A stretch of DNA of 41,011 nucleotides from Bacteroidales bacterium (GTDB lineage Bacteria; Bacteroidota; Bacteroidia; Bacteroidales; UBA7960): the NCBI GenBank assembly GCA_003559855.1, contig PWJZ01000084.1, forward strand, positions 1 through 41,011, in the 5' to 3' direction. The notes beneath the pieces were generated by a model that was not told the origin of the DNA, did not search any database, and saw nothing but the letters and a program-made list of their open reading frames with translations. Shown piece by piece: positions 15,859 through 34,154 of this stretch. Both the position numbers and the translations under genes were made by a program. Each line of letters opens with the position of its first letter. The first letter of the stretch is position 1.

Positions 15859-18800
15859 CTATCTAATGAGCGTAACATCTCCGGACTTATTGATTGTTAT
15901 TCCGTTTGTACATTTTCCCGAGACTTTCCAGACATATACGTCCATCGGAGCAAGTTTGCCTCGGAAATATCCATCCCAGCCTTTATCCGGCCGTGTTGAA
16001 CGAAATATAAGTTCACCCCAGCGGTTATAAATTTTAAGAACATATTTGTCTTCATCAACTCCTTCATAAACCGGAAGAAAAACAGCATTAGGATTATTTG
16101 GGTCATAAGTCCCTCCGATTGGTCCCGTTATGACAGGTTTAAAGGCATTTGGGAACAACACCTGGCAGGATTCATCAACGCGGAGGCTTGCATCAAGAAT
16201 TTTCATGTCAACGCATTGCGGGTCGGTATCGGTATAAACGGTAAGAGATATGTCGTAAATGCCAGGGGTTTCATAATAATGAACAGGTTCAGGTTCTGTT
16301 GAAGTAGCACCATCGCCAAACTCCCAGAAATAAAAATCAGCCAGTTCCGATTTGTTTATTACTTCCAAATGTTCGCGGGGTATTAATACAAGATTTGATA
16401 CCAACTCGAAATCGGACACAGGATTTTCGAACACTGTCACCTTTCTGTAGGCCGTATCTTTCCCTCCATCGCCAATAGCTATAAGCATAACATCATATTC
16501 TCCCGGATCGAAGAATATATGTTTTGGATTTTCCTCAACAGAAATTGTTCCATCTCCGAAATGCCAGCGATATTCATTGGTATATAAAGAATTATTGTAA
16601 AACTGTACTTCCAAAGGTACACAACCTTGAGTTGACGGCTCAAAATCAGCCATAGGCACTGGTGATGTAATTGTGACCTGCTGTTCTCTGATATCGTAGC
16701 AATATTCATTGGAAGCAGTTAAAACAATCGTGTATGTTTTTGTGGAGAGATCCTCTCCATCCCACTCATAAGTATGATCAAATGATGAATAATCAGTGGT
16801 TTCGTAAATATCGCTTCCATCACCTAAATCCCATTGAAACAAAAAGTCTCCCGGATTAGTAAGATTTGTTATGGTAACCGTTGTTTCAGGGTAAGGCTGT
16901 ACTTCGGGTAATGCCGTGAATTGAGCTTCAGGTGCAGGATACACTGAAATGTCCTTTATTATGGTGTCTTTACAGTAATACACCGATGTAGCCTCAAGGC
17001 TTACACCGAAAGTCAGGGGGTCGGAACCATCGTTAATGAATACATGCGTAGGATTGGCACTTGTTGAAGTTGCTCCGTCACCAAAATCCCATTTGTAGGA
17101 ATTACCCAGGTGAGACTGGTTAATGAATTTTACCATAAATGGCGAACAGCCGTCAAATAATTCATCGGAAGTTGTAAAATCTGCGGTAACTTCCGGAAAA
17201 ACCGTTATTGATTCAGTGGTATTATCGCTGCATCCAAACTCATTAATTGCGGTTAGCAATATTTGATAATTCAAGGGATTATCGGTTGTATTTTCCCAGG
17301 TATGAACGAAGGAAGCTTCATTTTCATTTGATTGACCATTTCCGAAATCCCATTCATAAATAAGTTGGTCGCCGACGGAATTATTGTATATTGTTGGTGA
17401 AAACGGCGAACACCCAGATGTTTCCGATAGCATAAAGCTTGCTTTGGGCACCGGCCAGATGAATACCGTATCAGTGTATTGAGCTTCGCAGCCATAGTTA
17501 GACGTAGCATACAAAGTAACCACACTTGTCATAACGTCTGTATTGGAGTAATTATAAAATACGTGTTGCGGGTTTTCTTTTTGCGACTGGTTTCCATCGC
17601 CAAAATCCCACAAAAAGCTGTCGCCGCCCACAGTATTATTTTCAAACTGAACCGTTAACGGATGGCATCCTTCACCGTTCATTTCAAACATGGCTTCTAT
17701 TTCAGGATAAATGGTCACTTCTTGCTGATACATATTGTAACAACCGTTTTCGCTCCATACCTCAAGGGTAATCGTAAATATAACCGGCCCTTCGCCGGCT
17801 GGTTGTGTGTATTGATGGGGATCAGGATGTTCTGCTTCCACAGGGTCGCTGCCGTCTCCAAAATCCCAGAGAAAACTTGCCGCCCCGACAGATTTATTTT
17901 CAACAACTATTTCATGAGGTGAACAACCGGGTGAGTTAAGCACCGAAAAATCAGCTAATGGAGTAGCCAATACAGTAACGTCGTTTTGTATGGTATCGGA
18001 GCACAGTTGTTCGTAATAAGCTACAAGGGTTATGGTAAAAGTAGTATCATCGGTGTGGCTGAAATTGTGAAAAGTATGCGAATGTATATATTCCGGATTA
18101 TTGGAAGTGTTGCCATCTCCATAATCCCATTCGTAAGGCAGGTAGCCCGATGCGCCCTCGGATTCGTTTATAAGGTCTACGGTAAAGGGATGACAACCTG
18201 TATCCTCACTAACATAAAAGCTGGCTATTACATCAGGGTGAATTACCACCTGCTGGGTAAACTCATCCGTACAACCTTCTTCATTGATCACTTCAAGCTT
18301 AATATCAAAAACCTGTGTCCCCTCACCGGGTTCGACATAATAGGTTACGGTAAAGGATTCCGAGCTGTTTTCAAATACGGGAGTACCATCGCCCAGATCC
18401 CACCAGAACTCTGTTCCGCCCTCCGAAGCATTATGTATTGTAACCTCATGGGGTGAACAGCCCTGACTATTCTCAACAAAGAAAGATGCCAACGGCTTGG
18501 GAAATACTGTAATATCTTGCTGTTCATATATATCCCAGCAACCATATTCCGACTCGGCGAAAAGAATAGCAGTAAAGAAATCATTTTCAGTGTGGCTTAG
18601 ATTAATATAAGTGTGTTCGGGATGTTGCTGAGTTGATGTTGTTCCGTCGCCAAATTCCCATTCATAATAGAGTCCGTTTTGAGTCGTATTAAAAAAATTA
18701 ACCATATGCGGATGACAACCATCATCCACCTCTTCGAAGCCGGCAATAACCTCCGGATATACGGTAATTTCCTGGCTTAATTCGGAAATACAGCCAAATT

Positions 18801-21800
18801 CATTTTCAACCAACAAATGAATCACGTAAGTGACCGGGTCGCCCGTATCGTTTTCAAACTCCCATTCAAAAATATCATCGTCGAAATTGTGAATTCCCGA
18901 ACCATCTCCAAAATCCCAATAATAAGTATCAACACCCTGAGAGTTGTTGTAAATTGTTACGGTAAATGGTGAGCATCCTGAAGCTTCTTCTACCGTAAAA
19001 TCTGCCTTGGGCGAGGGAAATACTTCAATTGTATGAATAAGGGTATCATAACATAAATAGGCGGATTCAACAATAAGTGTAACATCAAAATACTCTGTCT
19101 GATGGTATTCTGGATTTTCAAAGATATGCTCCGGTTCTGTTTCAGTAGAGGAAGCGCCATCGCCAAAGTCCCACAGATAATTCAGACCACCGGAAGAATA
19201 ATTTTCAAACAAAACACTCAAAGGACAACAGCCCGAATCGGGTATTGGCTGAAAATCCGCCGTAACTTTCGGATAAATAATAATGGAATCAATAGCTGTA
19301 TCAACACAATTTTGCTCATTGGTAACGGTAAGCACTATTTCATAGGTTTGCGGATCTTCTTCATCATGATCATATAAATGGGGTTCGGGGTTTTCGAGTG
19401 TGGAAGTATCCCCATAGCCGAAATCCCAATGATATGTCATTTCGCTACCCGAAGATGAAGTATTGGTAAATTCGGCATAGTGCGGATTGCAGGCATAAGC
19501 GGGGCTGAAATCAAAACCGGCGCTAACCTGCGGATGAACTGTAATTGTAATACCTGTAGTGTCGTAACATGAATGTTCTGACCATGCTATCATCTCAACC
19601 TCATATTCAATGGTTTCACCGGTTGTATTATTAAAAGTATGTATTGGGTTAGTCTGCGAAGATGTGCCACCATCTCCGAAATCCCATAAGAAATTAGTAG
19701 CGTTCTGAGAATTATCAAAAAACTCAACAGCAAAAGGTGCACAGCCCTCATCTTCCGATACAGTAAAGTCGGCTTCAACTTCGGGATATATTGTAATATC
19801 CTTATCAAACTCCTTTATGCAAACCTCTTCGCCGTTTCGTTCGAGCCAAACGGTTTGCTTAAGGTTATAAATTTCAACCTCCGGGCCAGGGTTCTCATAT
19901 GTATGTTCTATTATATCATCACCCAAATTGGATAAAGGACTGCCGTCGCCGAAATCCCATTCATAAAATTCGGCATTTTTGGCGTTGTTCATGATTTCTG
20001 CATGATAAGGAGCACACGAGGATACCGGGCTAATCGCAAAACCCGCTTCAACATCAGGATATACGGTAATATCAAGAAAATATGAGTCGGTACAAAAGAA
20101 ATTATCAGAACCAACGATCAGTTCAACAGTATATACCGTATCTGTTCCGTAATAATTATAGAAGGTCTTGGATGGATTTTTTTCCAATGATAATGTACCA
20201 TCTCCGAAAATCCAAAGGTAAAATATAATGGGTCCTTCAGAAAAATTTTCAAATTCCACGGTCAGAGGTGAACAGCCCTCGGTTATATCAGCATCGAATT
20301 CTGCATATATATTTGGAAATACCGTTACCTCCCTTTCAATATAGTGATCACACCCTTCGTTATTCATGGCGGTTAATGAGATAGTATAAGTTTCCACTTC
20401 TTCGCTTTCGGGATAAATGTGTACAAAAACATCTTCACCGGTATTGCTTTGGGTACCATCTCCAAAATCCCATAAATATTGATCAGCACCGATAGAATGG
20501 TTAGAAATAGTTATTACGTTTGATTGACAGATATCTTCCACGCTGACATAGAACAAGGCTTCGACATATGGCAGAATCTCGAAAGGTTCCATATCATAAC
20601 TTTTACAACCCGTTACGGGGTCTGTATATTCATAAAGAACATAATAATTGCCTTCGCCGATATCATGCGGGTAAAAGTTGGAAAAATCAATATGCGGTAG
20701 AAACAGGACATTAAAATCTTCATCAAGCAGGTAATAGGTTCCCCCTTCCGGTTCGCCACCTGTAAGGGCGTAGTTTGGAGTATTTGCACAAACGGATGAT
20801 TCAGGCAGGTTTAATGTCACTTCCGGCAATTGATAGACCGTAACCACCACCGAACTATCCACTGTTCCAAGTTCAGGGTATTCATTATCACCCACTTCAA
20901 CAGTATATATTGTTGTAACTTCAGGGCTTACCAGCGGCGATTGCACATTATTCGGATCCAGGCTCGGGTCTGGCGGATCGGCTGTCCAATGGTAGTTGTA
21001 TGAACCCGAACCTCCCGACGGCAATACCCACAACTGAGTAGTGTCGCCAAAACATATTGCTTCAGGTTCAGCGGTAATATCAACAATTTTAAGGGTATCG
21101 CCTGTAACATAAATGGTAACCTTGTCGGTAGCTATACAGCCGGTTTCCAGATCCGTAACCGTAAGGGTAAATACCGTAGAAAGAACAAGAGGCACGGTAT
21201 TAGTAGACTGGGCAGCGGGTTCTTCAACCAAATGTTCCGGTTCCCAGTTGTATGAATGCGGGCCCGGCCCTCCGTCAGCGGCTTCGAGAAACGCAGAAGT
21301 ACCGTAAATTATTACCTGGTCTTCACCTGCATAAGCATTTGGCAAACCATAAACAATAACTAAGGCAGTATCATAGTTACTGCAGCCATACTCATCGGTA
21401 AAAAAATAAATAACCTCGTGTTCGCCGGGCGGAGCTGCATCCAGATCAAAATGATTATGTAATACATACTCTCCCGAATAATGACCTCCGGGAGGCTCAC
21501 CACCATATAATTCAACCATACCTCCGTAATCACACAATTCCATACCATCCCAATTCACTTCGGGAAGCTCAACCACGGTAAGTATCTGGCTTGCCGTACC
21601 CAAACAACCGCTTTCTTTATCATAATATATATATGTTATTTCATAATCGCCGGGTCCGTATTCGCCCGGATCGAAAAAAACACTCTCTTCACCGTCAATA
21701 TAATAAACTCCACCCGCAGGCGAACCACCTGAAAGCGGAAATGGAGGACTGTCTTCACAAACAGGATCAAAGGGCAAAAGCTCTATTTCAAATTCAAATA

Positions 21801-22308
21801 TTTGTGAAAAAATAGAAAATTGATAAGGAACCGGTGTACCACGACGACAAAAGCTAATCGAATGCGGACCAGCCCCGTCAAAACACAATAGAATGTGATT
21901 ATCATCCACAGGTTGTGGAGGACCGCAATTTACATATAACCATAAATTACCGGTAGGCCCGCCAAAAACAATAAGTATGGAATTTGCCTCCGGATGCAGA
22001 TTTACCACAAATTCCATGCAATTCCAACCTTCGTCAAGACCACAACACTGACCGGCAAGTACTATAGATCCCTCCGAATGCCACTCAGCCTCAGGATCTT
22101 CAGTCAAATCCACTTCAAAATAAGGCGTCTCGGGTGTACAATACTCTGACTGGGAAAACAAATAAAATGGTATATGAAAAATAAAACAGATAATAAAAAA
22201 CCTCAACAGCAAATTCGATAAACAGAAAGTTTTAAACGACAATAAAACAAACTTCCTGAAAACGCGGAAAATAACCGACAGGCATATATAATGATGTAAT
22301 TTAAACAT
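15859..22308 (-). CDS. Giant PKD-repeat surface protein with T9SS type B sorting domain
   Basis: This is a predicted cell-surface adhesin-like protein of 2149 aa. A signal-peptide core (LLLRFFIICFIFHIPFYLFS) ends near residue 53 after an unusually long n-region. The first ATG is used, but TTG codons at residues 33 and 35 would give a more normal signal. The head has three Ig-like domains with GGxPxGGxY signatures (about 180-245, 243-315 and 503-578) and two further Ig/PKD-like domains between (about 318-500). Then come 17 PKD domains, mostly with WDFGDG cores (about 578-2040), and a C-terminal type B sorting domain from about 2045 (VLFPNAFKP, YNRWGELIF, GWDGYFRG). The domains alternate S and H subtypes in seven pairs, then three unpaired. 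It is a paralogue of the gene at 28383, in inverted orientation. Ligand unknown. Confidence 0.9.
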   Translation of the reverse strand: MFKLHHYICLSVIFRVFRKFVLLSFKTFCLSNLLLRFFIICFIFHIPFYLFSQSEYCTPETPYFEVDLTEDPEAEWHSEGSIVLAGQCCGLDEGWNCMEFVVNLHPEANSILIVFGGPTGNLWLYVNCGPPQPVDDNHILLCFDGAGPHSISFCRRGTPVPYQFSIFSQIFEFEIELLPFDPVCEDSPPFPLSGGSPAGGVYYIDGEESVFFDPGEYGPGDYEITYIYYDKESGCLGTASQILTVVELPEVNWDGMELCDYGGMVELYGGEPPGGHYSGEYVLHNHFDLDAAPPGEHEVIYFFTDEYGCSNYDTALVIVYGLPNAYAGEDQVIIYGTSAFLEAADGGPGPHSYNWEPEHLVEEPAAQSTNTVPLVLSTVFTLTVTDLETGCIATDKVTIYVTGDTLKIVDITAEPEAICFGDTTQLWVLPSGGSGSYNYHWTADPPDPSLDPNNVQSPLVSPEVTTIYTVEVGDNEYPELGTVDSSVVVTVYQLPEVTLNLPESSVCANTPNYALTGGEPEGGTYYLLDEDFNVLFLPHIDFSNFYPHDIGEGNYYVLYEYTDPVTGCKSYDMEPFEILPYVEALFYVSVEDICQSNVITISNHSIGADQYLWDFGDGTQSNTGEDVFVHIYPESEEVETYTISLTAMNNEGCDHYIEREVTVFPNIYAEFDADITEGCSPLTVEFENFSEGPIIFYLWIFGDGTLSLEKNPSKTFYNYYGTDTVYTVELIVGSDNFFCTDSYFLDITVYPDVEAGFAISPVSSCAPYHAEIMNNAKNAEFYEWDFGDGSPLSNLGDDIIEHTYENPGPEVEIYNLKQTVWLERNGEEVCIKEFDKDITIYPEVEADFTVSEDEGCAPFAVEFFDNSQNATNFLWDFGDGGTSSQTNPIHTFNNTTGETIEYEVEMIAWSEHSCYDTTGITITVHPQVSAGFDFSPAYACNPHYAEFTNTSSSGSEMTYHWDFGYGDTSTLENPEPHLYDHDEEDPQTYEIVLTVTNEQNCVDTAIDSIIIYPKVTADFQPIPDSGCCPLSVLFENYSSGGLNYLWDFGDGASSTETEPEHIFENPEYHQTEYFDVTLIVESAYLCYDTLIHTIEVFPSPKADFTVEEASGCSPFTVTIYNNSQGVDTYYWDFGDGSGIHNFDDDIFEWEFENDTGDPVTYVIHLLVENEFGCISELSQEITVYPEVIAGFEEVDDGCHPHMVNFFNTTQNGLYYEWEFGDGTTSTQQHPEHTYINLSHTENDFFTAILFAESEYGCWDIYEQQDITVFPKPLASFFVENSQGCSPHEVTIHNASEGGTEFWWDLGDGTPVFENSSESFTVTYYVEPGEGTQVFDIKLEVINEEGCTDEFTQQVVIHPDVIASFYVSEDTGCHPFTVDLINESEGASGYLPYEWDYGDGNTSNNPEYIHSHTFHNFSHTDDTTFTITLVAYYEQLCSDTIQNDVTVLATPLADFSVLNSPGCSPHEIVVENKSVGAASFLWDFGDGSDPVEAEHPDPHQYTQPAGEGPVIFTITLEVWSENGCYNMYQQEVTIYPEIEAMFEMNGEGCHPLTVQFENNTVGGDSFLWDFGDGNQSQKENPQHVFYNYSNTDVMTSVVTLYATSNYGCEAQYTDTVFIWPVPKASFMLSETSGCSPFSPTIYNNSVGDQLIYEWDFGNGQSNENEASFVHTWENTTDNPLNYQILLTAINEFGCSDNTTESITVFPEVTADFTTSDELFDGCSPFMVKFINQSHLGNSYKWDFGDGATSTSANPTHVFINDGSDPLTFGVSLEATSVYYCKDTIIKDISVYPAPEAQFTALPEVQPYPETTVTITNLTNPGDFLFQWDLGDGSDIYETTDYSSFDHTYEWDGEDLSTKTYTIVLTASNEYCYDIREQQVTITSPVPMADFEPSTQGCVPLEVQFYNNSLYTNEYRWHFGDGTISVEENPKHIFFDPGEYDVMLIAIGDGGKDTAYRKVTVFENPVSDFELVSNLVLIPREHLEVINKSELADFYFWEFGDGATSTEPEPVHYYETPGIYDISLTVYTDTDPQCVDMKILDASLRVDESCQVLFPNAFKPVITGPIGGTYDPNNPNAVFLPVYEGVDEDKYVLKIYNRWGELIFRSTRPDKGWDGYFRGKLAPMDVYVWKVSGKCTNGITINKSGDVTLIR
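16190..20580 (-). repeat. Array of 17 PKD domains, seven S/H pairs plus three
   Basis: The W-[DEIH]-[FLY]-G-[DYN]-G core recurs every 255-270 bases, for example near 16313, 16555, 17076, 17594, 17852, 18902, 19670 and 20455. Reading in protein order, odd domains 1-13 (S type) tend to have GCSP or CNPH starts and end NExGC. Even domains 2-14 (H type) tend to have GCHP or GCxP starts, an NxSHTEN-like stretch and end SxYGC. Domains 15-17 break the alternation. Boundaries are approximate. Confidence 0.85.
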
Positions 22309-22383
22309 ACAATATTTAACTGTAATACATAATTATCAACACAAACTTGTAACGGACAATAAATTTAAACATTTAATTATAAA

Positions 22384-22391
22384 CAAAATTA
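22384..22391 (-). promoter_or_regulatory. Weak -7 element upstream of the PKD gene
   Basis: TAATTTTG on the minus strand (22391-22384) matches TAnnTTTG, 76 bases before the ATG at 22308. No TTG lies at the right distance for a -33 element, so this is a low-confidence call. Confidence 0.2.
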
Positions 22392-22514
22392 AAATCCGTT
22401 TCAAAAAAACGAAAAACTTATCCACTTTCAAAATTTAATTTCATTTTCAGTAACTTTCGTTTACTTTTTACACTTTTCAAAAATCCCTGAACCTTTTTTC
22501 AAACATACAGGGTT

Positions 22515-22535: not shown

Positions 22536-25500
22536 CTATTGTTTTATGAATTTCAAGACTTTCCGTTGGTTATCAATTATTATTGTAATGAAATAAATTC
22601 CGGGATCAAAATTACCAACATGTATTTTACATTCATCTATCCCGTAGATTTTATAATCATTTTTGAAAACAATGCTTCCAGTAATTGAACTGATATAAAT
22701 GATTGTTTGCTGTTCACCTTTAACATCAAAATTAACATAGATATATTCATCAGCCGGATTGGGGTACAATAATACGTTATGACCGTCTTCAAATATGTTT
22801 TCAACCCCTGTTGCCTTGATGACTTTAAGTGTATCACTACCATGGCATCCATACATGTCGGTAACAACAACCCAGTGTATTCCAAAATCGTAAACATTAA
22901 ACAATTGACCTGCGAAGCCGTCATGCCACAAATAGGATTCAAATCCTGCCCCGGCATCCAACACTATGGTGTCGGGCTGAGACGTATATATATCTTCTCC
23001 AAGATCCACCTCCGGCAAACCTGTCACAACAACAGTTTCTTCGAGAATATCATTCTGACTGTTTGCATCTTTACCGGTATATGAAATTTTTATTTCATAC
23101 TCACCGGTATCTGAAAAATCGAATTTTTCATCCGAATAAAAAGTATAGACATTGCCAGGCAATAAGTCATTATCAATAACAAAACTTTCCTCAATATATA
23201 TATTGTTGTTAATCTCATAAGCAAATTTAAACTCTTGCCCTTTTTCGAAAGTATCATACCCGTTGTTTAAAGCTGTAAATACGAGTGATTCCTCCATTCC
23301 CAGCATGCAAGAGTTCTGTGGTTCAATTAATTCTTCCATAGCCAGGTCGAATGTATTAACCCATATTGAATCGGCGTTGGAGCAGCCGTAATAATCAGTA
23401 ATGGTAACACTATATTGCTCCGTATAAATTGACGTAACGTTATAATACTGATCCTTTGAGCCATCCTGCCATAAATAATCCGCAAATCCATCGCCGGCAT
23501 CAAGTACCACAGTATCAGGCTTAGTAGTATAAATGTCTTCGCCCAGATAAATGTATGGTAATGTATATGGATTATCTTTACTTATAATCGTGTCGTTATA
23601 ATTATTTTCGTCTTTTTCATAATAGAGCCAAACCATTAAGCTCCAGTACCCGGTGCCGATATGTTCGATAAAAGTTTCATAAGTATAAAAAACAGATTCT
23701 CCGGGCAGCAGATCATTCTGAAGTATCATCGTTTCAATCACATTCTCGTTATCATCAAAACGATACCCCATTTCTATCAACGTTTGTTCTATTACTGGCA
23801 TATTACCTGCATTTGTTACTTCAACCACTACAAAAACATCGACAGCTTCTTCACATATACTCACGGGAGCAACAATCTCTGTCATTTCCAGATCACAGAT
23901 CTCCGGCACTACATTTATCGAATCATCTCCTTCGCAACCCAGTTCATTAGTGACAGTAACGCTGTAAGTGCCGTGATCACTTATTGCGAGGGTTTGTGAA
24001 GCAGACCCGTCGCACCACAAATATGTTGCAAAACCTTCACCGGCATCAAGCACAACTGTATCCGGTTGCATGGTAACGATATCTTCACCAAGGTCAACTT
24101 CCGGATAACCGGTTACTTCAACCGTGGTATTCAGTGTATCATTAACCGGATTTGCATCTTGTTCCGACATGTATATCTCAAATTCATATTCGCCGATATC
24201 CTCCATATTAACGGTTTCGGAAAAAGTAAGCTCTTTTGACTCCCCGGCATCCCATTGCCCGCTAATAATAAGATCGTCTTCAGAAATAAAATATGAATTC
24301 ATATAAAGGGCAAAAGAAAAAGCATCGCCGCTGTAAAAGCTTTCCGGACCATGATTTATCAAAAGCACCGTTACAGGCTCGGAGTTGCTCAGCTCACATG
24401 CATCTTCAGGCCAGACCAATTCGGATACTTCGATATCATAAGTAATAACCTTTACCGTATCCCATCCGGGACATCCGTTGAAATCAGTTACCGTTACACT
24501 GTAATCCTGCGAGTAGGGTGATGTCACATTATAGTACTGCCCTGAATAACCATCCTGCCAGATATAATCCACAAACCCTTCACCTGCATCAAGTATCACT
24601 GTATCGGGCTGCAATGTATAAATATCCTCACCAAGGTCAACATCAGGATATCCAAACACTTCGATAACGGCATCAAGAGTATCATTTTCGGCATAAGCAT
24701 CCTTATAGTGATGATAAATCCTGAATTTATGAGTGGTTTCTTCACTCAGATCAAACAGATGCTCAAAAGTATGTATAAGATAATCGGCAGGGTGCAGATC
24801 ATTATTCAACAATAATGATTCGGTAGCTATATATATCTCTTCATAATATATTGACAACGGCACTTCTGTACCGCTGCTTATCGTATCGGGTCCAACATTT
24901 TTTATTTTCACCGATATTTGTTCCTCTTCTCCCAGTTCACAATTACTTTCGGGTGATGTAATTTCCTCAACACTAAGGTCATTGGCAACAACCATAATAT
25001 TATCGGATGCGAAACAACCCATTTCATCCCAAACAGTAACATTGTATTGGTATGTGTAAGGCAGGGTTACATGGTAATGCTGGTTTTTAGAACCATCCTG
25101 CCACAGGTATTCGGTAAATCCATCGCCTGCATCAAGCACCACAGTATCGGGCTGCGCCGTATAAATATCTTCCCCAAGATCCACATCAGGATTACCATAT
25201 ACCGTAATGACCGACACCAGCGTATCGTTGTAAACTCCGGGCTCATAAAACCCCGTATCACCCGGCATCATCGTATAAGCTGTTATAGTATGGTCACCTG
25301 TCTCTGACAGGTCGAAAGTGGCCTCGAACGTGTAATTGACTGTTTCTTCCGGTTCCAGAACCTGACTCAGTTCAAAATTTTCATAAACAGGGTTCAGTTC
25401 ATTCACATCAACCCCTACGGGTATTTCCGTATTCTTTTCAATAGGATTGATGCCGAAGTTTTTAATTGAAACGGTTATTATTTGATTTACCGACAACTCG

Positions 25501-28031
25501 CAATCACTTACCGGTTCTATCAATTCAACAACACCAACATCGTGTGGGGCTTCAAAAAGCTGTATATTGTCAACAGCCACACCTTCATATAGCTGAAGAT
25601 TATTACCGGAAGCAAATACAAATCTGAATTTGACATCCGGATAATTCAATATTTCGGGCGGTAGCACTATACGCGGTCTGAACCATTCGTTGCTTTGCCC
25701 GTCCCAACCTTTTCCACTTCCAAATTTATTTTCAAGATAAGTTATATTATCATTGCCAAACCAGTTCCAGACTAGCTCTTCATCAAACGGCTCAAGAGTT
25801 TGCCATGTTTCACCTTCATTTAATGAATATTGCAAAGAAACGCCATCAACATCTTCATAGGTATCGGTGTTGAGCCAAAACTCCATGGCCGACAACTCCA
25901 AACCCGTAAAATCAAAGCATGGGCTTTCGAGCCACGATGTTTCATAATCATTATAATGACCTGCCGCATCAGTGATCCATGCGTACTGACCTGATTGCGC
26001 ATTTTTTATAACCTCGCCATCCGGTATTGCCCATTCCCATGATATATTTTCGCCAAAGGCAATCCACAGTCCGTCATCGTTTTCAAAATTTTCGGCATAT
26101 GGCAGTGTATAAGTAGGTAAAGATAATACAACCGGATAATAAGCATCATTGGAGGGGTCCTGATCCCCTTCGAGGAATGTCTTGGCAATAATATTATCAT
26201 ATTTGCCCGGTTGAGAAAAATCGGCTTTGGGTTCAAAAACAAAAACGATGCTGTCTTCAACAGCTATTGCCTCTTCAACATAGTCCATATACCATGTTTC
26301 ACCTCCGTCAAGAGAAAAGCCAACCGGTATATTTTCAGGACTTGGCTGTGCGCCAAAATTCCTGATTACCACTGCCACTTCTTCTTCGCCTGTTAGCCCG
26401 CAACCATAATTTGGATAAAGCCAGTCGGTAACACCAACATCTTTTGTAATATGACTGCCGGAAATAAACAGGTTATCAATATTCCATCCGCTATAATTAT
26501 GAAAATCGCCTGTTGGTCCAAGTGTGAACCTTATTCTGACACTATCCTGACGATTTAACTGCGGAAGCGATATGTTTTTCTGAGTCCATGAGGTAGCTAT
26601 CTGATGAAAAAAGGTGTTTCTCCAGACTTCCTCCCATGACTCACCGTTGTCCGTGCTTACATCAATCGTAGCTTTGTCAATATAGCCTGAAATATAGACA
26701 TTGATCCAACCATGAAAGCTTAACACTATATCATCATAATAGAAACAATCTATAAGAGGCGATACTGCTTGATATTCCCTGTCTCCAAGATTAGGTTCAT
26801 AATTTCCGGGGAAATTGCCCAGCCCCGTAAGGTCAGTACCCAAAACATTTGTACCGGCAAAAGCATAACATGCACCGGGTTGTCCTCCACTACCATGATA
26901 TACAGGAGAATACCCGCCCAAACCCTGTGGCTCATCACGCTCAAATTCTCCACTTAGCTCCCACCCTTTGTCATAATCAAAATCATCATAAAAAACGGTG
27001 TGATATATCAGCCTGAAACCGGAAGGATTGTGGTTTTCAGGCGGATAAAGCGTATCATTTGCCAGAATACCCTCTTCAGGAATAAAACAATTTGCTATGT
27101 TTAAGTTTCCGGCTTCACTTTTTATATCATACGTTACCCATACATAAGAATAACCCGTAGGCAGATCAACATTAAGCCCGGTAAATTCGGCCACACCATT
27201 TACAAAATTAACACCACTGTAAGATATTTGATTTGAAGTATGGAAGTCTTTCTCACTGGTTAAAAACAGCCTGACACCCTGGTTCTTTATATCATCATCA
27301 TCAGTATTAAGAGAATTGACCGTATATTCCTCAAGTATAAAATCTCCCGTATTTCCATAAACCCTGAACTCTGTTCTCAATATATCATTATTATCGGTGC
27401 CTGCGGCTATTCTGTCAGATGATGCCATAACGGTGTTTATGTTCGTTAGATACTTTTCTAATATACCTGTTTCAATAACAGTAACACCATCTATACATAC
27501 TCCCATTCCCCAGCCATTAATACCTTCAAAAGCAATGTAAGTTTCATCGGATTCTGTTTCCAGAAATATAAACCTCTCCATCCATTCTTCCTCCCCCGTA
27601 CTTGATGCATAATGGGCAATCTCTATCCAGTCACCTTCCGTTCCTTCACGGTAATAAACTTTAAGCTCATCCTGACCTACCATAGGCAATTGAGCATGCC
27701 AAAACCTTAATTCGGGTTCAACCGCAAACTCCATATTTATGGGTGGTGTTATCAATTTAGTGATTTCACCATAATTACCTTGTTTTTGAAATGTTGCATT
27801 ATAATCGCCAACTGCCGCAGTGTCGGGAACCCCGATATTGCCGGGTCCAACATAACCGGCACCCTGCCTGATGTCCCAATCCAGACTAAGGTGCACATAT
27901 TCCTGCACCCAGCCCGAAGGCATTGAACCACCGGAAAAATCTTCATAAAACAATATCTCCTGGGCCGGCAAAACTTTTGTGATTACGAAAAGTAAAATTA
28001 TTGATATTAAATATGAACGCATCCTTTGCAT
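22536..28031 (-). CDS. Giant multidomain surface protein (MAM-like, CARDB-like, LGED modules) with T9SS type A sorting domain
   Basis: This is a predicted secreted or surface protein of 1831 aa with no catalytic domain that I recognise. A signal peptide (SYLISIILLFVITKVLPAQ) is followed by a MAM-like jelly-roll (about 28-190), a domain resembling the one found N-terminal to BNR neuraminidases (about 195-340), a second MAM-like domain (about 345-530), a CARDB-like domain, a third MAM-like domain (about 640-825) and another CARDB-like domain. Then come five modules that open with VDLGEDIYTxQPDTVVLDAG at about 947, 1125, 1307, 1490 and 1672; the first four are each followed by a CARDB-like domain. 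The last 75 residues (LLYPNPADEYIYV to VLKFIKQ) form a type A sorting domain. It lies between the two inverted PKD paralogues and has its own terminator. Confidence 0.88.
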   Translation of the reverse strand: MQRMRSYLISIILLFVITKVLPAQEILFYEDFSGGSMPSGWVQEYVHLSLDWDIRQGAGYVGPGNIGVPDTAAVGDYNATFQKQGNYGEITKLITPPINMEFAVEPELRFWHAQLPMVGQDELKVYYREGTEGDWIEIAHYASSTGEEEWMERFIFLETESDETYIAFEGINGWGMGVCIDGVTVIETGILEKYLTNINTVMASSDRIAAGTDNNDILRTEFRVYGNTGDFILEEYTVNSLNTDDDDIKNQGVRLFLTSEKDFHTSNQISYSGVNFVNGVAEFTGLNVDLPTGYSYVWVTYDIKSEAGNLNIANCFIPEEGILANDTLYPPENHNPSGFRLIYHTVFYDDFDYDKGWELSGEFERDEPQGLGGYSPVYHGSGGQPGACYAFAGTNVLGTDLTGLGNFPGNYEPNLGDREYQAVSPLIDCFYYDDIVLSFHGWINVYISGYIDKATIDVSTDNGESWEEVWRNTFFHQIATSWTQKNISLPQLNRQDSVRIRFTLGPTGDFHNYSGWNIDNLFISGSHITKDVGVTDWLYPNYGCGLTGEEEVAVVIRNFGAQPSPENIPVGFSLDGGETWYMDYVEEAIAVEDSIVFVFEPKADFSQPGKYDNIIAKTFLEGDQDPSNDAYYPVVLSLPTYTLPYAENFENDDGLWIAFGENISWEWAIPDGEVIKNAQSGQYAWITDAAGHYNDYETSWLESPCFDFTGLELSAMEFWLNTDTYEDVDGVSLQYSLNEGETWQTLEPFDEELVWNWFGNDNITYLENKFGSGKGWDGQSNEWFRPRIVLPPEILNYPDVKFRFVFASGNNLQLYEGVAVDNIQLFEAPHDVGVVELIEPVSDCELSVNQIITVSIKNFGINPIEKNTEIPVGVDVNELNPVYENFELSQVLEPEETVNYTFEATFDLSETGDHTITAYTMMPGDTGFYEPGVYNDTLVSVITVYGNPDVDLGEDIYTAQPDTVVLDAGDGFTEYLWQDGSKNQHYHVTLPYTYQYNVTVWDEMGCFASDNIMVVANDLSVEEITSPESNCELGEEEQISVKIKNVGPDTISSGTEVPLSIYYEEIYIATESLLLNNDLHPADYLIHTFEHLFDLSEETTHKFRIYHHYKDAYAENDTLDAVIEVFGYPDVDLGEDIYTLQPDTVILDAGEGFVDYIWQDGYSGQYYNVTSPYSQDYSVTVTDFNGCPGWDTVKVITYDIEVSELVWPEDACELSNSEPVTVLLINHGPESFYSGDAFSFALYMNSYFISEDDLIISGQWDAGESKELTFSETVNMEDIGEYEFEIYMSEQDANPVNDTLNTTVEVTGYPEVDLGEDIVTMQPDTVVLDAGEGFATYLWCDGSASQTLAISDHGTYSVTVTNELGCEGDDSINVVPEICDLEMTEIVAPVSICEEAVDVFVVVEVTNAGNMPVIEQTLIEMGYRFDDNENVIETMILQNDLLPGESVFYTYETFIEHIGTGYWSLMVWLYYEKDENNYNDTIISKDNPYTLPYIYLGEDIYTTKPDTVVLDAGDGFADYLWQDGSKDQYYNVTSIYTEQYSVTITDYYGCSNADSIWVNTFDLAMEELIEPQNSCMLGMEESLVFTALNNGYDTFEKGQEFKFAYEINNNIYIEESFVIDNDLLPGNVYTFYSDEKFDFSDTGEYEIKISYTGKDANSQNDILEETVVVTGLPEVDLGEDIYTSQPDTIVLDAGAGFESYLWHDGFAGQLFNVYDFGIHWVVVTDMYGCHGSDTLKVIKATGVENIFEDGHNVLLYPNPADEYIYVNFDVKGEQQTIIYISSITGSIVFKNDYKIYGIDECKIHVGNFDPGIYFITIIIDNQRKVLKFIKQ
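22830..25200 (-). repeat. Five tandem LGED modules of about 182 residues
   Basis: The DNA encoding DxGEDIYTxQPDTVVLDAGxGF recurs at intervals of about 540-550 bases, near 25190, 24655, 24110, 23560 and 23015 on the minus strand. Each copy has a YLWxDG strand and a TVTDxxGC end. Copies 1-4 are followed by a CARDB-like domain of about 100 residues; copy 5 runs directly into the sorting domain. Boundaries are approximate. Confidence 0.85.
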
Positions 28032-28096
28032 GATTTTATGTTATTTAACTAAACAAATTAAGGTTTTTCATTTATTTAAAAATTTAATATGATATC

Positions 28097-28136
28097 TCAG
28101 TTTGTTCAGGTTTTTAACCTCAACTGAACAAACTGA
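28097..28136. promoter_or_regulatory. Long inverted repeat in the divergent control region
   Basis: TCAGTTTGTTCAG (28097-28109) and CTGAACAAACTGA (28124-28136) are perfect 13-base complements. The 14-base loop adds a nested AGGTT/AACCT stem. No T-run follows on either strand, so it is unlikely to be a terminator. It could be an operator for the two divergent genes, an RNA structure in one leader, or a dispersed palindromic repeat. Confidence 0.65.
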
Positions 28137-28307
28137 AAATTCATCTGTGCCGTCGCTTAATCTTAAGCCTTTTATAACACCATAAAATAACAAAAAAGAT
28201 GCTCATGGTCTTATAGGTGTTGCAACTATTTTTTTTAGGTGTTTCTACGGAGGAGTGAGGCCGGAAAATTGGGTGTTTTTACGTATTATTATTTATTGAT
28301 CCTTATC

Positions 28308-28315
28308 TATATTTG
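28308..28315 (+). promoter_or_regulatory. -7 element for the IgGFc/PKD surface protein gene
   Basis: TATATTTG matches TAnnTTTG perfectly and lies 67 bases before ATG 28383. The expected -33 TTG is missing; only a T-rich stretch occurs at 28276-28280. Its position supports ATG 28383 over the TTG at 28338. Confidence 0.35.
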
Positions 28316-28382
28316 ATTGGATTATTAAGGGTACTTTTTGGAGGTAAAAAACGATCAAAAAAAACATAAAATCTTAATTGAA

Positions 28383-31300
28383 ATGCGAACCAGAATTGTT
28401 GTAATTTGTCTGCTTTTATTTTCCCTGGCAACTTTCCGTAGTTATGCCCAGACAGATACCGAATTTTGGTTTGTAGCCCCAAATGTTACCACAGGGCACG
28501 ACGGCAACAGGCTGGCTTTCAATATAAGATTTTCCTCATTGAATTTGCCGTCTCAGGTTACCATCCGTATGCCGGCTAATCCCGGATTTGCTCCAATTGT
28601 TCATGATATGGAGGCCAATGAAACCAGAACGGTTGATATGACCAATCTTTTCAATGACATTCGCAACTACCCTCCTAACAATATATTGAACCGGGGGATA
28701 CTTATCGAAGCAACCAATAACATAACAGCATATTATGAAATTTCAACGCCCAACAATCCCGACATTTATGCTTTGAAAGGCGATAACGCCCTTGGCAAAG
28801 AGTTTTATGTGCCTTTTCAAAATTTCTGGGATAATTCTCCAAGCTACAGCCCCAGGCCGTTTTCTTCAATTGATATTGTTGCTACACAAGACAACACCCT
28901 CGTTACCATTACACCCACCAAACCGGTTTTCCCAAACAGGCCCGCGGGTGTATCTTTTACGGTCAGTTTGAATCGGGGACAATCTTTTTCGGTGGTACCT
29001 GATGATTACGAAAGTACCGGTCAAAAGGCAGATATGCATCTTGGAGGCACCAAGGTAGAATCAACCCACCCTATCACAGTCATATCAAGTGACGATTCAA
29101 TAGATGCACTTACTCACCCGGGTCAGGGAGGATGCAAGGATGTAGTAGGCGATCAGATAATACCTACCGACCTTATTGGCACCGAATATATTGCAATGAA
29201 AGGTTATCTTACGGCTTATGAACATTTTTATGTAATCGGAACGCATGATAATACGGAAATATACATTGATGATGTTTATGAAACTACCATTCATGAAACT
29301 GAAGTATTCCGATATGAATTTGAAAAGAAAGCATATCATATAAAAACCAGCTACCCTGCATATGTGTATCATATTGGCGGCTTTGGCTGTGAAATGGGTG
29401 CTGCAGTATTGCCTCCGATTAATGTCTGTACAGGTTCAACACAAGTATCTTTCACACGATCAAAGGGCGAAAGCTTCTTTTTAAACATATTGGTGCGTGC
29501 CGGTGCAGAAGACAGTTTTATACTTAATGGAGACCCTAATCTGATAAATGCCAATGATTTTCAATATGTGTTGGGAAATCCTAACTGGCTTGTTGGGGAA
29601 TTTCAGTTCAACACGGGAGTTATTCCTGTTGGCGTAGCCAGTCATATACAAAATACTTCAGATGTTTTTCATCTGGGTATTATTAACGGAGGTGCGGCAA
29701 CCGGAACGATGTACGGCTATTTCTCAGATTTTAACGAGGTTGATGTTGACGCCCATATAAGCGGCACGAATATGCTGCTCGGTTGCCACGGCGATTCTTT
29801 TCAAATGATAGCATCAGGTGGTGTTAACTATATCTGGGATCCCCCCGATCACCTGGATGATCCCACAAGCCCGACACCTATAGCTACTCCTCCTCACTCA
29901 ATAGTATATAAGGTGATCGCCAGCGGAGCCTGTCAAATGGTTGATTCGGCTTATGTTACCATTAATCTCATAGACCCTGTCATCAGCCTATATACAATCG
30001 AAGAAGCAACAGGTTGTTCACCTTTTGAAGCAACCATATACAATCAATCAATGGGTGTTAAAAACTATTCATGGCGATTTGGAGACGGACAAACATCAAC
30101 AACAGGAGCAGATACTATAACCCATATCTACACAAACGATGATGACGAACCTGCTATTTACGAGTTGATGCTCGTTGGAAGAAATTTATTTTGCAGAGAT
30201 ACAATGGCTACAAATATTGTTGTAATGCCCGAAATTCGAGCTGAAATAGTCAATAATGATATCAGCGGCTGCTCACCGGTAACCGTTTCATTCGAAAATA
30301 ATTCAAAAGGAGCATCCAACTTTCTATGGGATTTTGGCGATGGAAGTTCTACGACGAATATAGAACCAACTCATACATTTCATAATTATTCCGATAAGGA
30401 CACAACTTATACGGTTATTCTGAAAGCATTGTCGGAACATGGATGTATTGATTATGACACAGTTAATATAAACGTTAAGCCATATGTAAAGTCCGGTTTT
30501 GAGTTTGATCCGCCCTCACATTGCAACCCTTATTATATGGAAATTACAAACACCTCTGTCGGGGCTACTTCACATATATGGGATTTTGATGACGGCACGG
30601 GTCAAACCGAAATAAATGAAGATACAATATTTTATCTGCTGGAAAATACCGAATCATTGCCTAATACCTTTAACATACAACTTTATACCTTCAACGAATA
30701 TGAATGCAGCGACTCACTTATAAGGCAAGCCGTAGTATATCCATATCTGAAAGCTGATTTTCAAGCTTCTGCCGTTGAGGGTTGTAACCCGCTGGAAGTT
30801 AATTTTTCGAACATTTCGGAAGGTGCTGCATCTTATCACTGGTATTTTGGCCATCAGCAAGGAACATCTTCAAAGCATAGCCCGGAACATATTTTTAACA
30901 ACCCAAGTTCGACCGAAAAAGCTGTATTTGATGTTATACTTACTGCTACTTCCGAGTATAACTGTGAAGACACCGCATCAATAGAGATCACTGTTTATCC
31001 GATATTAGAAGCAGGTTTTACGGTAGATAAAAGTTCATACTGCAGCCCTCATGAAGTTGTTTTCTATAACAATGCCGTGGGAGCAGAAGCCGTTCACTGG
31101 GATTTCGGCGACGGCACCAGTTACTATGACAATTCAAAAGAGGTCATTAATAACTATAAAAATCTAACCGGTATGCCGGTAACTCATACTGTAATCCAAA
31201 CCGTTATAAATGAACAGGGATGCGAGGATACCACATCTGCCCAGATCACTGTTTACCCTGAAATAGAAGCCGATTTTAATATTACAGATACCGGCAACGG

Positions 31301-34154
31301 CTGCCATCCGCTCGAAGTAACTTTTGAAAACAATTCAAGCGGTGCATCTTATTATCACTGGGATTTTGGAGATGGGGGCACATCTTCACAGAAAAGCATA
31401 ACAAGAAAATTCTACAATTACAGCCATACTGAAAACAAGCAATATGATATTACACTCACGGTGGAGTCAGATTACGGCTGCGTTGATTCAACCACAAAGC
31501 AATTAACAGTACACCCCAAACCAAAAGCTGCTTTTCACATGCCTGTAAACCAGGGCTGTTCTCCTCTGACGGTCGATTTTATTGATCAAAGCATAGGTGG
31601 TGAATCCTACAACTGGATCTTCGGTGATGGCCATGATGTAACAACATACCCTGGAAGCATATATCATACATATCATAATACAAGCAACTTTTCCGACAGT
31701 TTGAACCCCGAGTTAATCATAAAGAATCAATACGGCTGTACTGACACGACAATGCAAAACATCATAGTGGTATATCCTGAGATAACGGCAGATTTTACTG
31801 TTTCAGAAACGTCAGGCTGTCATCCCTTAGAGGTAACCATCTACAATAATTCTTCAGGTGCTACAGGATCCACCCCTTATATGTGGTATTACGGCGACGT
31901 CAACACCTCCACCAATCATAATCCTGAACACACTCATGTTTTTCACAATTCGGATCATGAACAAAATGCTTATTATACCATTTCTTTGACCATCGAATCA
32001 AAATATGGTTGCAAGGATTCCCTTTCGCTTAATATTACCGTTCATCCGGTACCAAAAGCTTATTACGAAGCTGACAAGCATACCGGCTGTTCTCCTCATA
32101 ATGTAGTATTCGGTGATCTGTCCGTTGGAGGCAACTATAATTATCTCTGGACATTTGGCGATGGGCAAACATCAACTACAAAAGGCAACATATCACATAC
32201 TTATGTTCAACCGGCAGAAACAGGAACCGGCACATTCAATTCGCAACTGGAAATATCCAATATTTATGGTTGTAATGATAATCATGAAAAAACTATAACA
32301 GTTTATCCTGATATTGAAGCTGATTTTACGGCTGAAAACATGGAAGGATGCCATCCTCTGGCTGTTGCTTTTGAGAACTTGAGCGAAGGTGCTGATTTTT
32401 ATCAATGGAACTTTGGCGATGGAAATCATTCAAATAAAGCAGAACCTGAAAATACATTTTTCAACAATTCTCACACTGCAACCATAGATTACCACGTAGA
32501 ACTGCACGTTGGCTCACAATATGGTTGTGAAGCTACTGTAGCCAAGCCGGTTACGGTTTTTCCCAAACCCAAGGTAGCATTTGATACAGATGTTACAGAT
32601 GGCTGTTCACCATTGAATGTTTTGTTTGAAAACCAATCGATTGGCGTTGACCATTATGAATGGGATTTTGGCAATAATAAATCGAATACTTCTCAGGCAT
32701 ATTTCAACCATTTATTTCAAAACACCGGCAGCCAGCCATATACTTATAATGTATACCTGGCGGGTTCCAACCAGTGGGGCTGCTCAGAAGAAGCCAGCCG
32801 CAATATTACAGTATACCCCGAAGTAAAGGCTGATTATACAACCGAAACAGGCGATTATAAAGGCTGTACACCCCTAAATATTAACTTTATAAACAATTCG
32901 AAACTGGCAGATACATATTTTTGGTCTTTCGGGAATCAAGCAACATCCACTAATGTAAACCCAAGCTATACATTTTTTAACGAAGGTAATGAAGATCTTC
33001 TCATTGATGTGAAACTGCTCGCTGAGTCATCATACGGATGCAAAGATTCGGTTGAAAAAATAATAACCATTTATCCGCAGCCAATAGCCGATTTTGAAGC
33101 TTTACCACATGACCAGATATTTCCGTCAAAAACAGTAACCGTTTATAATTACTCCAGCGAGGGCGATTGGTCCTACGATTGGGATATGGATGACGGAACA
33201 AGTTTCACAACCCAAAACGCCGATCCTTTTGAACATACTTTTATCTGGGAAAGCGGCGATTATGCAACAAGGCATTTCTATATTGACTTACAGGTATATA
33301 ATGATTATTGTTATGATAATATTCAGCAAAAAGTTACCATCTCCTCACCCTATCCGGTAGTAGGGTTTAGCCCTTCTGCATCGGGTTGTCCTCCATTTGA
33401 AGTACAATTTACGAATAAATCGAAATATGGTTTTTATTTCTTCTGGGATTTTGATGACGGCAACTATTCTAATGAAAAGAATCCATCGCACGTATTTGAA
33501 AACCCGGGAGTTTATCAAGTGACCTTAAAAGTGACCGGTGAAGGAGGGGTTGATTCAGCGAAAAGTATTATTAAGGTTTACGAACCACCAATTGCTAATT
33601 TCAGGGTTGAACCGCAAGTAGTTCAATTGCCATTTGAACCTGTTCAGCTGATAAACCTTTCCAGCCTCGGAATTACTTACGAATGGGATTTTGGAGATGG
33701 TACCATCTCTTGGGATTATGAACCGGAGCATTTTTACAACAAACCGGGAAGCTATGACATAACACTCAGGGTTGGATCCGATACCGATCCTCAGTGTTTT
33801 GACGAGATAACCAAACAAAATGCCGCTATAGCCGAAGAAGTATGCAAAATTGTTTTTCCGAATGCTTTTAAGCCTAAAAAGAGTGGCCCAACAGGAGGGC
33901 ATTATAATCCCAATGACCCTTCAAATCACATTTTTCATCCGATCTACGACGGTATTGATGTAAACAATTACATACTGGAAATTTATAACCGCTGGGGAGA
34001 ACTTGTATTCAGAACAACGGATATTAATAAAGGATGGGATGGTTATTATCGCGACAAGTTAGTTACCATGGACGTTTATGTCTGGAGATTAAATACCAAA
34101 TGCCATAACGGAAAAAAGATTGATGAAACAGGTGATGTAACAGTAATACGATAA
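28383..34154 (+). CDS. Giant PKD-repeat surface protein with IgGFc-binding-like head and T9SS type B sorting domain
   Basis: This is a predicted surface adhesin-like protein of 1923 aa. The signal peptide (RIVVICLLLFSLATFRSYAQ) sets the start at ATG 28383. Residues about 20-450 resemble the IgGFc-binding domain family: it opens TDTEFWFVAPNVTTGHDGN and contains HPITVISSDDS and PAYVYHIGGFGCEMGAAVLP. An Ig-like domain follows (about 460-530), then 15 PKD domains (about 533-1816) and a type B sorting domain (IVFPNAFKPK, YNRWGELVF, GWDGYYRD, ending TGDVTVIR). The PKD domains form six S/H pairs plus three C-terminal domains, the same plan as the protein encoded at 15859-22308. The porP/sprF-type gene follows after 74 bases and is probably cotranscribed, fitting T9SS type B cargo and anchor pairs. 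Actual IgG binding is not implied. Confidence 0.9.
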   Translation: MRTRIVVICLLLFSLATFRSYAQTDTEFWFVAPNVTTGHDGNRLAFNIRFSSLNLPSQVTIRMPANPGFAPIVHDMEANETRTVDMTNLFNDIRNYPPNNILNRGILIEATNNITAYYEISTPNNPDIYALKGDNALGKEFYVPFQNFWDNSPSYSPRPFSSIDIVATQDNTLVTITPTKPVFPNRPAGVSFTVSLNRGQSFSVVPDDYESTGQKADMHLGGTKVESTHPITVISSDDSIDALTHPGQGGCKDVVGDQIIPTDLIGTEYIAMKGYLTAYEHFYVIGTHDNTEIYIDDVYETTIHETEVFRYEFEKKAYHIKTSYPAYVYHIGGFGCEMGAAVLPPINVCTGSTQVSFTRSKGESFFLNILVRAGAEDSFILNGDPNLINANDFQYVLGNPNWLVGEFQFNTGVIPVGVASHIQNTSDVFHLGIINGGAATGTMYGYFSDFNEVDVDAHISGTNMLLGCHGDSFQMIASGGVNYIWDPPDHLDDPTSPTPIATPPHSIVYKVIASGACQMVDSAYVTINLIDPVISLYTIEEATGCSPFEATIYNQSMGVKNYSWRFGDGQTSTTGADTITHIYTNDDDEPAIYELMLVGRNLFCRDTMATNIVVMPEIRAEIVNNDISGCSPVTVSFENNSKGASNFLWDFGDGSSTTNIEPTHTFHNYSDKDTTYTVILKALSEHGCIDYDTVNINVKPYVKSGFEFDPPSHCNPYYMEITNTSVGATSHIWDFDDGTGQTEINEDTIFYLLENTESLPNTFNIQLYTFNEYECSDSLIRQAVVYPYLKADFQASAVEGCNPLEVNFSNISEGAASYHWYFGHQQGTSSKHSPEHIFNNPSSTEKAVFDVILTATSEYNCEDTASIEITVYPILEAGFTVDKSSYCSPHEVVFYNNAVGAEAVHWDFGDGTSYYDNSKEVINNYKNLTGMPVTHTVIQTVINEQGCEDTTSAQITVYPEIEADFNITDTGNGCHPLEVTFENNSSGASYYHWDFGDGGTSSQKSITRKFYNYSHTENKQYDITLTVESDYGCVDSTTKQLTVHPKPKAAFHMPVNQGCSPLTVDFIDQSIGGESYNWIFGDGHDVTTYPGSIYHTYHNTSNFSDSLNPELIIKNQYGCTDTTMQNIIVVYPEITADFTVSETSGCHPLEVTIYNNSSGATGSTPYMWYYGDVNTSTNHNPEHTHVFHNSDHEQNAYYTISLTIESKYGCKDSLSLNITVHPVPKAYYEADKHTGCSPHNVVFGDLSVGGNYNYLWTFGDGQTSTTKGNISHTYVQPAETGTGTFNSQLEISNIYGCNDNHEKTITVYPDIEADFTAENMEGCHPLAVAFENLSEGADFYQWNFGDGNHSNKAEPENTFFNNSHTATIDYHVELHVGSQYGCEATVAKPVTVFPKPKVAFDTDVTDGCSPLNVLFENQSIGVDHYEWDFGNNKSNTSQAYFNHLFQNTGSQPYTYNVYLAGSNQWGCSEEASRNITVYPEVKADYTTETGDYKGCTPLNINFINNSKLADTYFWSFGNQATSTNVNPSYTFFNEGNEDLLIDVKLLAESSYGCKDSVEKIITIYPQPIADFEALPHDQIFPSKTVTVYNYSSEGDWSYDWDMDDGTSFTTQNADPFEHTFIWESGDYATRHFYIDLQVYNDYCYDNIQQKVTISSPYPVVGFSPSASGCPPFEVQFTNKSKYGFYFFWDFDDGNYSNEKNPSHVFENPGVYQVTLKVTGEGGVDSAKSIIKVYEPPIANFRVEPQVVQLPFEPVQLINLSSLGITYEWDFGDGTISWDYEPEHFYNKPGSYDITLRVGSDTDPQCFDEITKQNAAIAEEVCKIVFPNAFKPKKSGPTGGHYNPNDPSNHIFHPIYDGIDVNNYILEIYNRWGELVFRTTDINKGWDGYYRDKLVTMDVYVWRLNTKCHNGKKIDETGDVTVIR
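29970..33830 (+). repeat. Array of 15 PKD domains, six S/H pairs plus three
   Basis: Core WDFGDG-like motifs recur every 250-270 bases, near 30077, 30327, 30580, 30841, 31099, 31361, 31615, 31883, 32149, 32406, 32660, 32921, 33179, 33446 and 33683. Domains 1, 3, 5, 7, 9 and 11 are S type (GCSP or similar; mostly NxxGC ends) and 2, 4, 6, 8, 10 and 12 are H type (often GCHP; NYSHTEN-like stretch, SxYGC ends). Some copies lack the canonical FGDG (YFGHQ, YYGDV, FGNNK, FGNQA). Confidence 0.85.

Follow-up and report, generated by a model that had tools for sequence, protein, structure and literature searches.

Two giant proteins encoded on opposite strands of a 41,011-nucleotide stretch of Bacteroidales DNA (hereafter, the window; contig PWJZ01000084.1) carry long stalks in which two types of PKD domains, S and H, alternate, and among the sampled relatives that have the IgGFc-like head of one of them, P0003, the number of PKD domains is odd without exception. 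In all 56 complete arrays of this class that include the terminal trio of domains, the count is odd, ranging from 11 to 27, and on the one tree built it stays odd through at least 19 changes of domain number. The best overall explanation, which we consider quite likely to be correct, is that these are adhesin-like stalks that are exported by the type IX secretion system (T9SS), anchored by PorP/SprF-type proteins and changed in length by even numbers of domains.

Two giant PKD proteins and their neighbors

P0001 (15859-22308, minus strand) is an ORF of 2149 aa with 17 PKD domains. Its N-terminal region (residues 1-580; 20569..22308) consists of a hydrophobic leader, recognized by eye, and a head that lacks the IgGFc module. 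It is followed, all on the minus strand, by a stalk body of 14 PKD domains, d01-d14, in seven S-H pairs (16933..20568), the terminal trio T1-T3, d15-d17 (16177..16932), and a type B-like T9SS C-terminal domain (15859..16176). P0003 (28338-34154, plus strand), an ORF of 1938 aa with 15 PKD domains, follows the same plan on the plus strand: an N-terminal region (28338..29978) with an IgGFc_binding module at residues 150-412, a stalk body of 12 PKD domains, e01-e12, in six S-H pairs (29979..33080), the terminal trio e13-e15 (33081..33833), and a type B-like T9SS C-terminal domain (33834..34154). The leader of P0003, which by eye resembles a signal peptide, starts at an internal ATG, at residue 16.

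Between the two giants lies P0002 (22536..28031, minus strand), which contains choice-of-anchor J and CARDB-like stretches and a type A T9SS C-terminus. Judging by its sequence, this protein also looks to be built of two-module units: the motif LGEDI occurs at residues 952, 1133, 1314, 1496, and 1677 (window positions 25178, 24635, 24092, 23546, and 23003), marking five copies of a module that are 181-182 residues apart and seem to alternate with the CARDB-like stretches (34 bits to Pfam CARDB). P0004, a PorP/SprF-family outer-membrane protein (34229..35281, plus strand), begins 74 bp past P0003. The gene order of the window is kept in another genome of the same genus, G002, and the P0004-P0003-P0002 segment is kept in G001. 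A scan of the divergent intergenic region for promoters found 3 against 2.4 expected, that is, no excess over chance. In a plasmid collection, 30 records contained matches, none of which covered 80% of P0003, and the best were below 60% identity. The contig ends (40901-41011) with a 55-bp tandem repeat in two exact copies, rich in ATTCGTG.

Alternation of two domain types along the stalk

The domains of both proteins belong to the PKD families (PF18911/PF00801) by profile scores above the cut-off and by the PKD fold. Pfam PKD_4 matches P0001 with 359 bits (E 1e-109, 11 stretches) and P0003 with 291 bits (E 2e-88, 8 stretches), and the individual PKD-type domains, 17 and 15 in number, span 78-92 aa each. 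The arrays were originally described as seven pairs plus three domains in one protein and six pairs plus three in the other, in strict S/H alternation up to the last three, and both parts of this description are borne out. We built position profiles from 9 P0001-like and 11 P0003-like orthologues, all complete and picked by eye, with at least 17 or at least 15 domains required, respectively; the best match across the paralogues was of the same type at 14/14 and 12/12 body positions. Typing models derived only from the window assign SHSH...123 to most of the orthologues, with a few positions off.

In a tree of the individual domains, the S type requires three changes and the H type two, compared with 10.4 each for shuffled labels, and none of the 500 shuffles gave values as low. 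Neither of the two tree outcomes that would have spoken against the prediction was observed: S domains do not group with their adjacent H domains, and an S/H split is present. The two types largely separate, as expected, but S is not one clean clade because two S domains, d09 and d11, cluster next to members of the terminal trios (d15/e13 and d17/e15); support is strong on only 5 of the 29 inner branches. The predicted length of a pair, about 174 residues or 520 bases, agrees with the mean of about 173 aa in the window and with a self-match of the P0003 array DNA at an offset of 519 bp. Of the linkers proposed to alternate in the later domains, PxPxA marks later S domains only; across the order, 55 of 378 S domains and 8 of 378 H domains are preceded by P-x-P. 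The additional pair of P0001 is best placed at the N-terminal end of the array, a weak preference (total of 2630 versus 2601 for the next best placement).

Exactly two cysteines are present in 369/378 S and 374/378 H domains of the stalk body, and these would form disulfides.

The terminal trio

The last three domains of P0001 and P0003 correspond one to one, as predicted, the two trios being reciprocal best matches (scores 178-201). The further claim that the fixed block comprises three domains does not survive: P0001 and P0003 correspond over about eight positions from the C-terminal end of the array, which rules out a fixed block of only three. The register d_i = e_(i-2) holds for approximately d10-d17, with d12 tied between e06 and e10, and is blurred further in.

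In the window, d15/e13 lean to the S type and d16/e14 to the H type, and the trio can be read there, within the window's family, as a degenerate S-H pair plus one domain. We dropped this reading as a general one because order-wide models type T1 as S in only 12 of the 56 arrays (as H in 20, with 24 untyped); T2 is typed as H in 51 arrays and T3 in 48. On these assignments, the array is best written as (S-H)n followed by a trio of its own kind, a formula that makes the total odd. The two-cysteine pattern of the body is absent from the trio, where T1 keeps the second cysteine, T2 the first, and T3 the second, each in 117/117 trio blocks. Additional cysteines are found in T3 of 30/117 blocks, and others in the C-terminal domain. 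This arrangement suggests a disulfide between T1 and T2, with the third cysteine bound to a partner that would vary.

Odd domain numbers across the order

A search of the order with the trio produced matches at E 1e-40 in at least 183 of 393 genomes, from which 80 regions were fetched; scanning genome contigs contributed 80 named loci, and the sources were mostly metagenome assemblies of Bacteroidales and other Bacteroidetes. The trio profile matched 208 frames at E 1e-20, of which 117 were kept, with a whole trio required and near-copies removed. Twelve of these 117, with at most 120 aa before the array, were set aside as cut; they include even counts (12, 12, and 12-14 domains), as expected of cut arrays. 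The remaining 105 complete arrays comprise 56 with an IgGFc-like head and 49 with other heads. The sample is not exhaustive, since it excludes several frames of very large size, incomplete trios and matches further down the ranking, and each species is represented by one genome in the collections. The sampled proteins are kin to one another, so that 56 arrays are not 56 independent trials.

The counts in the IgGFc class are 11 (one array), 13 (one), 15 (22), 17 (nine), 19 (15), 21 (four), 23 (three), and 27 (one). Odd counts could, in principle, be produced by a PKD model that splits or misses domains, and three of the 56 arrays did require a correction, namely, two merges and one missed domain. 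All three corrections stand on inspection, and in both merges the fragments cover successive parts of the PKD model. The 53 arrays that needed no correction are all odd; the number of cysteines in the body is twice the number of body domains in 46/56 arrays and divisible by 4 in 47/56; and the same caller returned 26 odd and 23 even counts for the 49 arrays with other heads, so the method is able to see even numbers. Given the uniformly odd uncorrected arrays and the even counts in the other classes, we rejected a caller artefact as extremely improbable.

Parity could also be mere ancestry, that is, the legacy of one ancient odd array that underwent few real changes. The domain number is, indeed, nearly frozen within the window's family according to the sequences sampled: among the orthologues picked as complete, 11 P0003-like proteins have 15 domains and 9 P0001-like proteins have 17. 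The exceptions among the P0003-like proteins are L062 and G001, with 23 domains each; L069, from the same family, has 11 domains behind a 58-aa leader and was therefore set aside as cut. Across the class, however, there are eight different counts, sister proteins differ by clean two-domain gaps (see below), and a tree built from the head and the terminal block only implies at least 19 changes of count, an approximate number that comes from one quick search. On these changes, we rejected ancestry as the source of parity; it is very improbable. If single and double steps were equally likely, the chance of 19 consecutive even changes would be about 2 in a million, a value that depends on this tree.

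Alternation itself is widespread in the IgGFc class. In a permutation test, it is significant (p<0.05) in 48/56 arrays, with a positive statistic in 55/56; the contrast between even and odd similarity has p>=0.05 in L098, L105, L112, L176, L180, L202, L234, and L240, in one of which it is negative. Thus, as judged from sequence similarity, alternation is faint in some lineages while parity holds. The first domain is typed as S in 53/56 arrays and is untyped in the other three. Of the 652 fully typed junctions, 632 alternate (344 S-H and 288 H-S) and 20 join domains of the same type (15 S-S and 5 H-H); 97 further junctions were not fully typed. The models used for junction typing exclude the array in hand, but the training types are defined by position and related arrays are present in both halves, so that this typing is not fully independent.

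Among the arrays with other heads, those of one sub-class, in which the head measures about 700 aa, contain 6, 8, 8, 8, 10 (five times), 12, and 14 domains, and 7 in one case, after a merge. The 11 even members of these 12 are L161, L171, L172, L174, L175, L178, L179, L183, L200, L206, and L216, and the odd one is L091, counts that are consistent with pair steps at the opposite parity. In five other proteins without the IgGFc head (L218, L223, L181, L207, and L225), a run consisting mostly of H domains gives way to S-H alternation toward the C-terminus, an arrangement from which it appears that S may have arisen from H.

Stalks of sister proteins differ by one pair or by several

The predicted growth and loss of the stalk by pairs agrees not only with the parity of the counts and their changes over the tree but also with direct comparison of sister proteins: in each of five lineages, the sisters are set apart by a clean two-domain gap, 171-181 residues in length. 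In genus g97, 23 domains are present in L208 and in L196 and 21 in L210, and the 181 residues of one pair are the only gap of at least 12 residues between L208 and L210. In L191/L193, L234/L240, L180/L176, and L166/L083, the sisters likewise differ by a clean gap, here of 171-176 residues; gaps aside, L180/L176 and L234/L240 differ at the N-terminal end only. Neither L191 nor L240 contains a close copy of its extra pair, suggesting that the sister lost it, and one of the extra domains of L166 has a copy at 62% identity, suggesting a gain. Broken gaps were found in 3 of 11 pairwise alignments, all of them more distant comparisons: L202/L100, with broken gaps of 51, 39, and 101 aa; L062/L070, with seven gaps; and L084/L070 (44% identity), with two separate one-domain gaps of 86 and 84 aa. 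Single-domain steps, the type of variation that would speak against the pair as the unit, are absent from the counts, and the two gaps in the distant L084/L070 alignment are of this size.

A larger event was traced in the genus of the window itself. The P0003 orthologue in G001 (L061, G001:C209) went from 15 to 23 domains, with e02-e09 present twice in a row, the copies being 59-85% alike. The doubled block runs from H to S, so that an S is once more followed by an H at the new junction. This frame carries one in-frame TAA, which reflects either an assembly error or decay. Hence the claim that the unit of change is one pair has to be widened: the steps are even, but several pairs can apparently be gained at once. 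Whether they amount to whole pairs or to this eight-domain block, the differences between sister sequences preserve the S-H-S-H order.

The genes of the window retain only short DNA self-matches (48-170 bp, 67-79% identical), TRF detected no tandem repeats in either the P0001 or the P0003 gene, and the counts in the family are near-constant; ongoing length variation in these two genes would be an over-reading.

Self-similarity within arrays follows the same even periodicity. In the uncorrected arrays of both classes, identity reaches 55% or more in 24 domain pairs, every one of them at lag 2, 4, 6, or 8, with none at odd spacing and, specifically, 0 of 1053 pairs at lag 1. At the DNA level, the bodies of the 53 uncorrected IgGFc-class arrays contain 76 self-matches, of which 66 have an even and 10 an odd lag; among those of at least 150 bp, 12 are at even lag and 0 at odd lag, all odd-lag matches being shorter than 150 bp. 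In L208, a 675-bp self-match, 73% identical, has an offset of 543 bp, or 181 codons, and both L208 and L186 show recurrent offsets, of 510, 543, 1020, 1530, and 2040 bp.

These even-lag DNA matches, recurrent offsets and near-identical domains are what would be expected if parity were of purely mutational origin, with unequal crossing-over or slippage dependent on DNA similarity, which is found between domains of the same type, and with S-S and H-H junctions tolerated. The mixed parity of the other-class arrays, some of which contain H runs, points in the same direction. However, parity is kept in the eight arrays without a significant even/odd contrast, and none of the at least 19 changes yielded an odd-step count despite the short odd-lag DNA matches. 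We regard a purely mutational origin as a plausible but tentative explanation, falling short of probable.

Structure of the stalk and the possible basis of parity

A structural model of e05-e08, built from 53 sequences, consists of four PKD sandwiches (pLDDT 96.6), and the predicted arrangement of the four domains is fairly confident (pTM 0.78). The confidence of this model and the alternation at 632 of the 652 typed junctions both favor a purely selective explanation, under which the S-H pair is a structural repeat, with a fixed twist per two domains, and single-domain changes are purged. The apparent gains and the apparent losses both come in pairs, which is also in line with selection. The H runs in the related trio proteins argue against it, since H-H junctions are evidently tolerable in that setting, and we consider selection alone somewhat unlikely.

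The overall explanation that we favor combines both elements: recombination or slippage would need the similarity that exists between like domains, S with S and H with H, and the S-to-H and H-to-S junctions would not be interchangeable, so that S-S or H-H contacts would be disfavored. In a bolder reading of the parity rule, plausible but short of probable, S-to-H and H-to-S are two distinct interfaces and the pair is the structural repeat, so that a T9SS stalk would change only in one-pair steps between the head and an invariant terminal block with cross-links of another kind.

Probable export and anchoring, and the heads

By sequence, each protein consists of an N-terminal head, an S-H PKD stalk and a fixed end block of T1-T3 plus the C-terminus, and both are probably surface proteins. 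With leaders identified by eye, P0001 and P0003 would enter the periplasm by the signal peptide and then cross the outer membrane via the T9SS. In the C-terminal domain, P0003 scores 33.3 bits to CHU_C, above the cut-off of 27, and P0001 scores 26.9, 0.1 below it; for TIGR04131 (cut-off 35), both are below, at 29.2 and 27.7 bits, respectively. The genome encodes SprA (2670 bits), GldK (576 bits, with one stop in frame) and four PorP-like genes including P0004, which scores 206 bits to PF11751 and adjoins P0003, not P0001. Of the features by which a type B substrate is recognized, a PorP/SprF gene nearby and a T9SS in the genome are both present. Flanking sequence of 1500 bp or more is available for 18 IgGFc-class loci, of which 13 have a PorP-like ORF on the same strand at most 315 bp downstream, and 5 have none within 6 kb downstream or within the available flank.

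Type B cargo is reported to bind its PorP-like protein (PMC9143113 and PMC12618676), and the latter paper also describes three orphan substrates that use one common shuttle. By analogy, P0004 probably serves the type B cargo as both shuttle and anchor, its PorP/SprF-type barrel holding the type B C-terminus, and P0001, which has no adjacent PorP gene of its own, may share it. The C-terminal tail of P0004 (35150-35281) contains a single cysteine, in the motif PCP; a Cys-x-Cys of the SprF type was not found in this tail. Among 27 PorP-like ORFs beside relatives, which have single-cysteine tails, the motif is PCP in 23, PCA in 3, and ACP in 1.

Binding presumably takes place at the head. P0003 matches the IgGFc-binding family (PF17517) with 122.6 bits against a cut-off of 25.6, whereas P0001 has no IgGFc_binding match at E 0.001. 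Binding of IgG by the P0003 head is putative. The P0003 head (28443-29978) yields a confident fold model (pLDDT 92.3, pTM 0.91); among solved structures it has no convincing counterpart, the best TM by query length being 0.17, and there is no PDB sequence match at E 0.001. Proteins of this design would be adhesins with a reach set in steps of one pair, and changing this length may be useful to the cell.

Discussion

Free change of length might be expected of giant repeat adhesins. The IgGFc class, as sampled in many families of one bacterial order, instead stays odd through its repeated length changes, as traced on the tree used. This behavior poses a testable question, namely, whether the multi-domain steps result from the mechanics of recombination or from the fit between neighboring domains, and the recent events in L208/L210 and G001 are natural experiments that address it. 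If the bolder reading of the parity rule is true, the reach of the stalk would be a quantised, selectable trait.

The closest known parallels are SprB-SprF of Flavobacterium johnsoniae and PG1035-PorP of Porphyromonas gingivalis, which are similar to the window proteins in the type B-like C-terminus, the adjacent PorP/SprF gene, and the presence of SprA/GldK homologues; the window proteins differ by the PKD stalk made of S-H pairs. According to PMC12635249, the Cys-x-Cys of SprF is invariant and bonds to GldK, in contrast to the one cysteine (PCP) of the P0004 tail. With one cysteine and no twin motif, movement along a gliding track is not indicated, and we do not call these proteins gliding adhesins.

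In structural comparisons, the best match of e05-e08 is GhpA, the grappling hook protein A of Aureispira sp. CCB-QB1 (PDB 9flp and related entries; Z 13.8, rmsd 6.8, 313 aligned residues; Foldseek E 4.6e-14), with low identity, 13-21%. GhpA also matches A1, the profile of the trio plus the C-terminus (whole-sequence E 9.9e-41, with the best stretch at GhpA residues 5815-5882). However, GhpA is 5898 aa long, unlike P0001 with 2149 and P0003 with 1938, and the likeness is one of fold and C-terminus only. Over one domain each, the model also matches collagenase PKD domains and that of an S-layer protein from an archaeon (2y72, 4u6t, and 1l0q), with Z 11.3-13.1 and rmsd 1.4-1.9.

We found no account in the open-licence literature of a family that keeps parity through many length changes. 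Pair-wise duplication as such is known, and the strict parity rule, as it emerges from the sequences analyzed here, appears to be new. The survey by Bjorklund, Ekman and Elofsson (2006, PMC1553488) identifies two domains at a time as the commonest duplication unit among domain repeats. It describes tendencies over many families, whereas the parity observed here holds for every sampled member of one bacterial class and involves two recognisable domain types.
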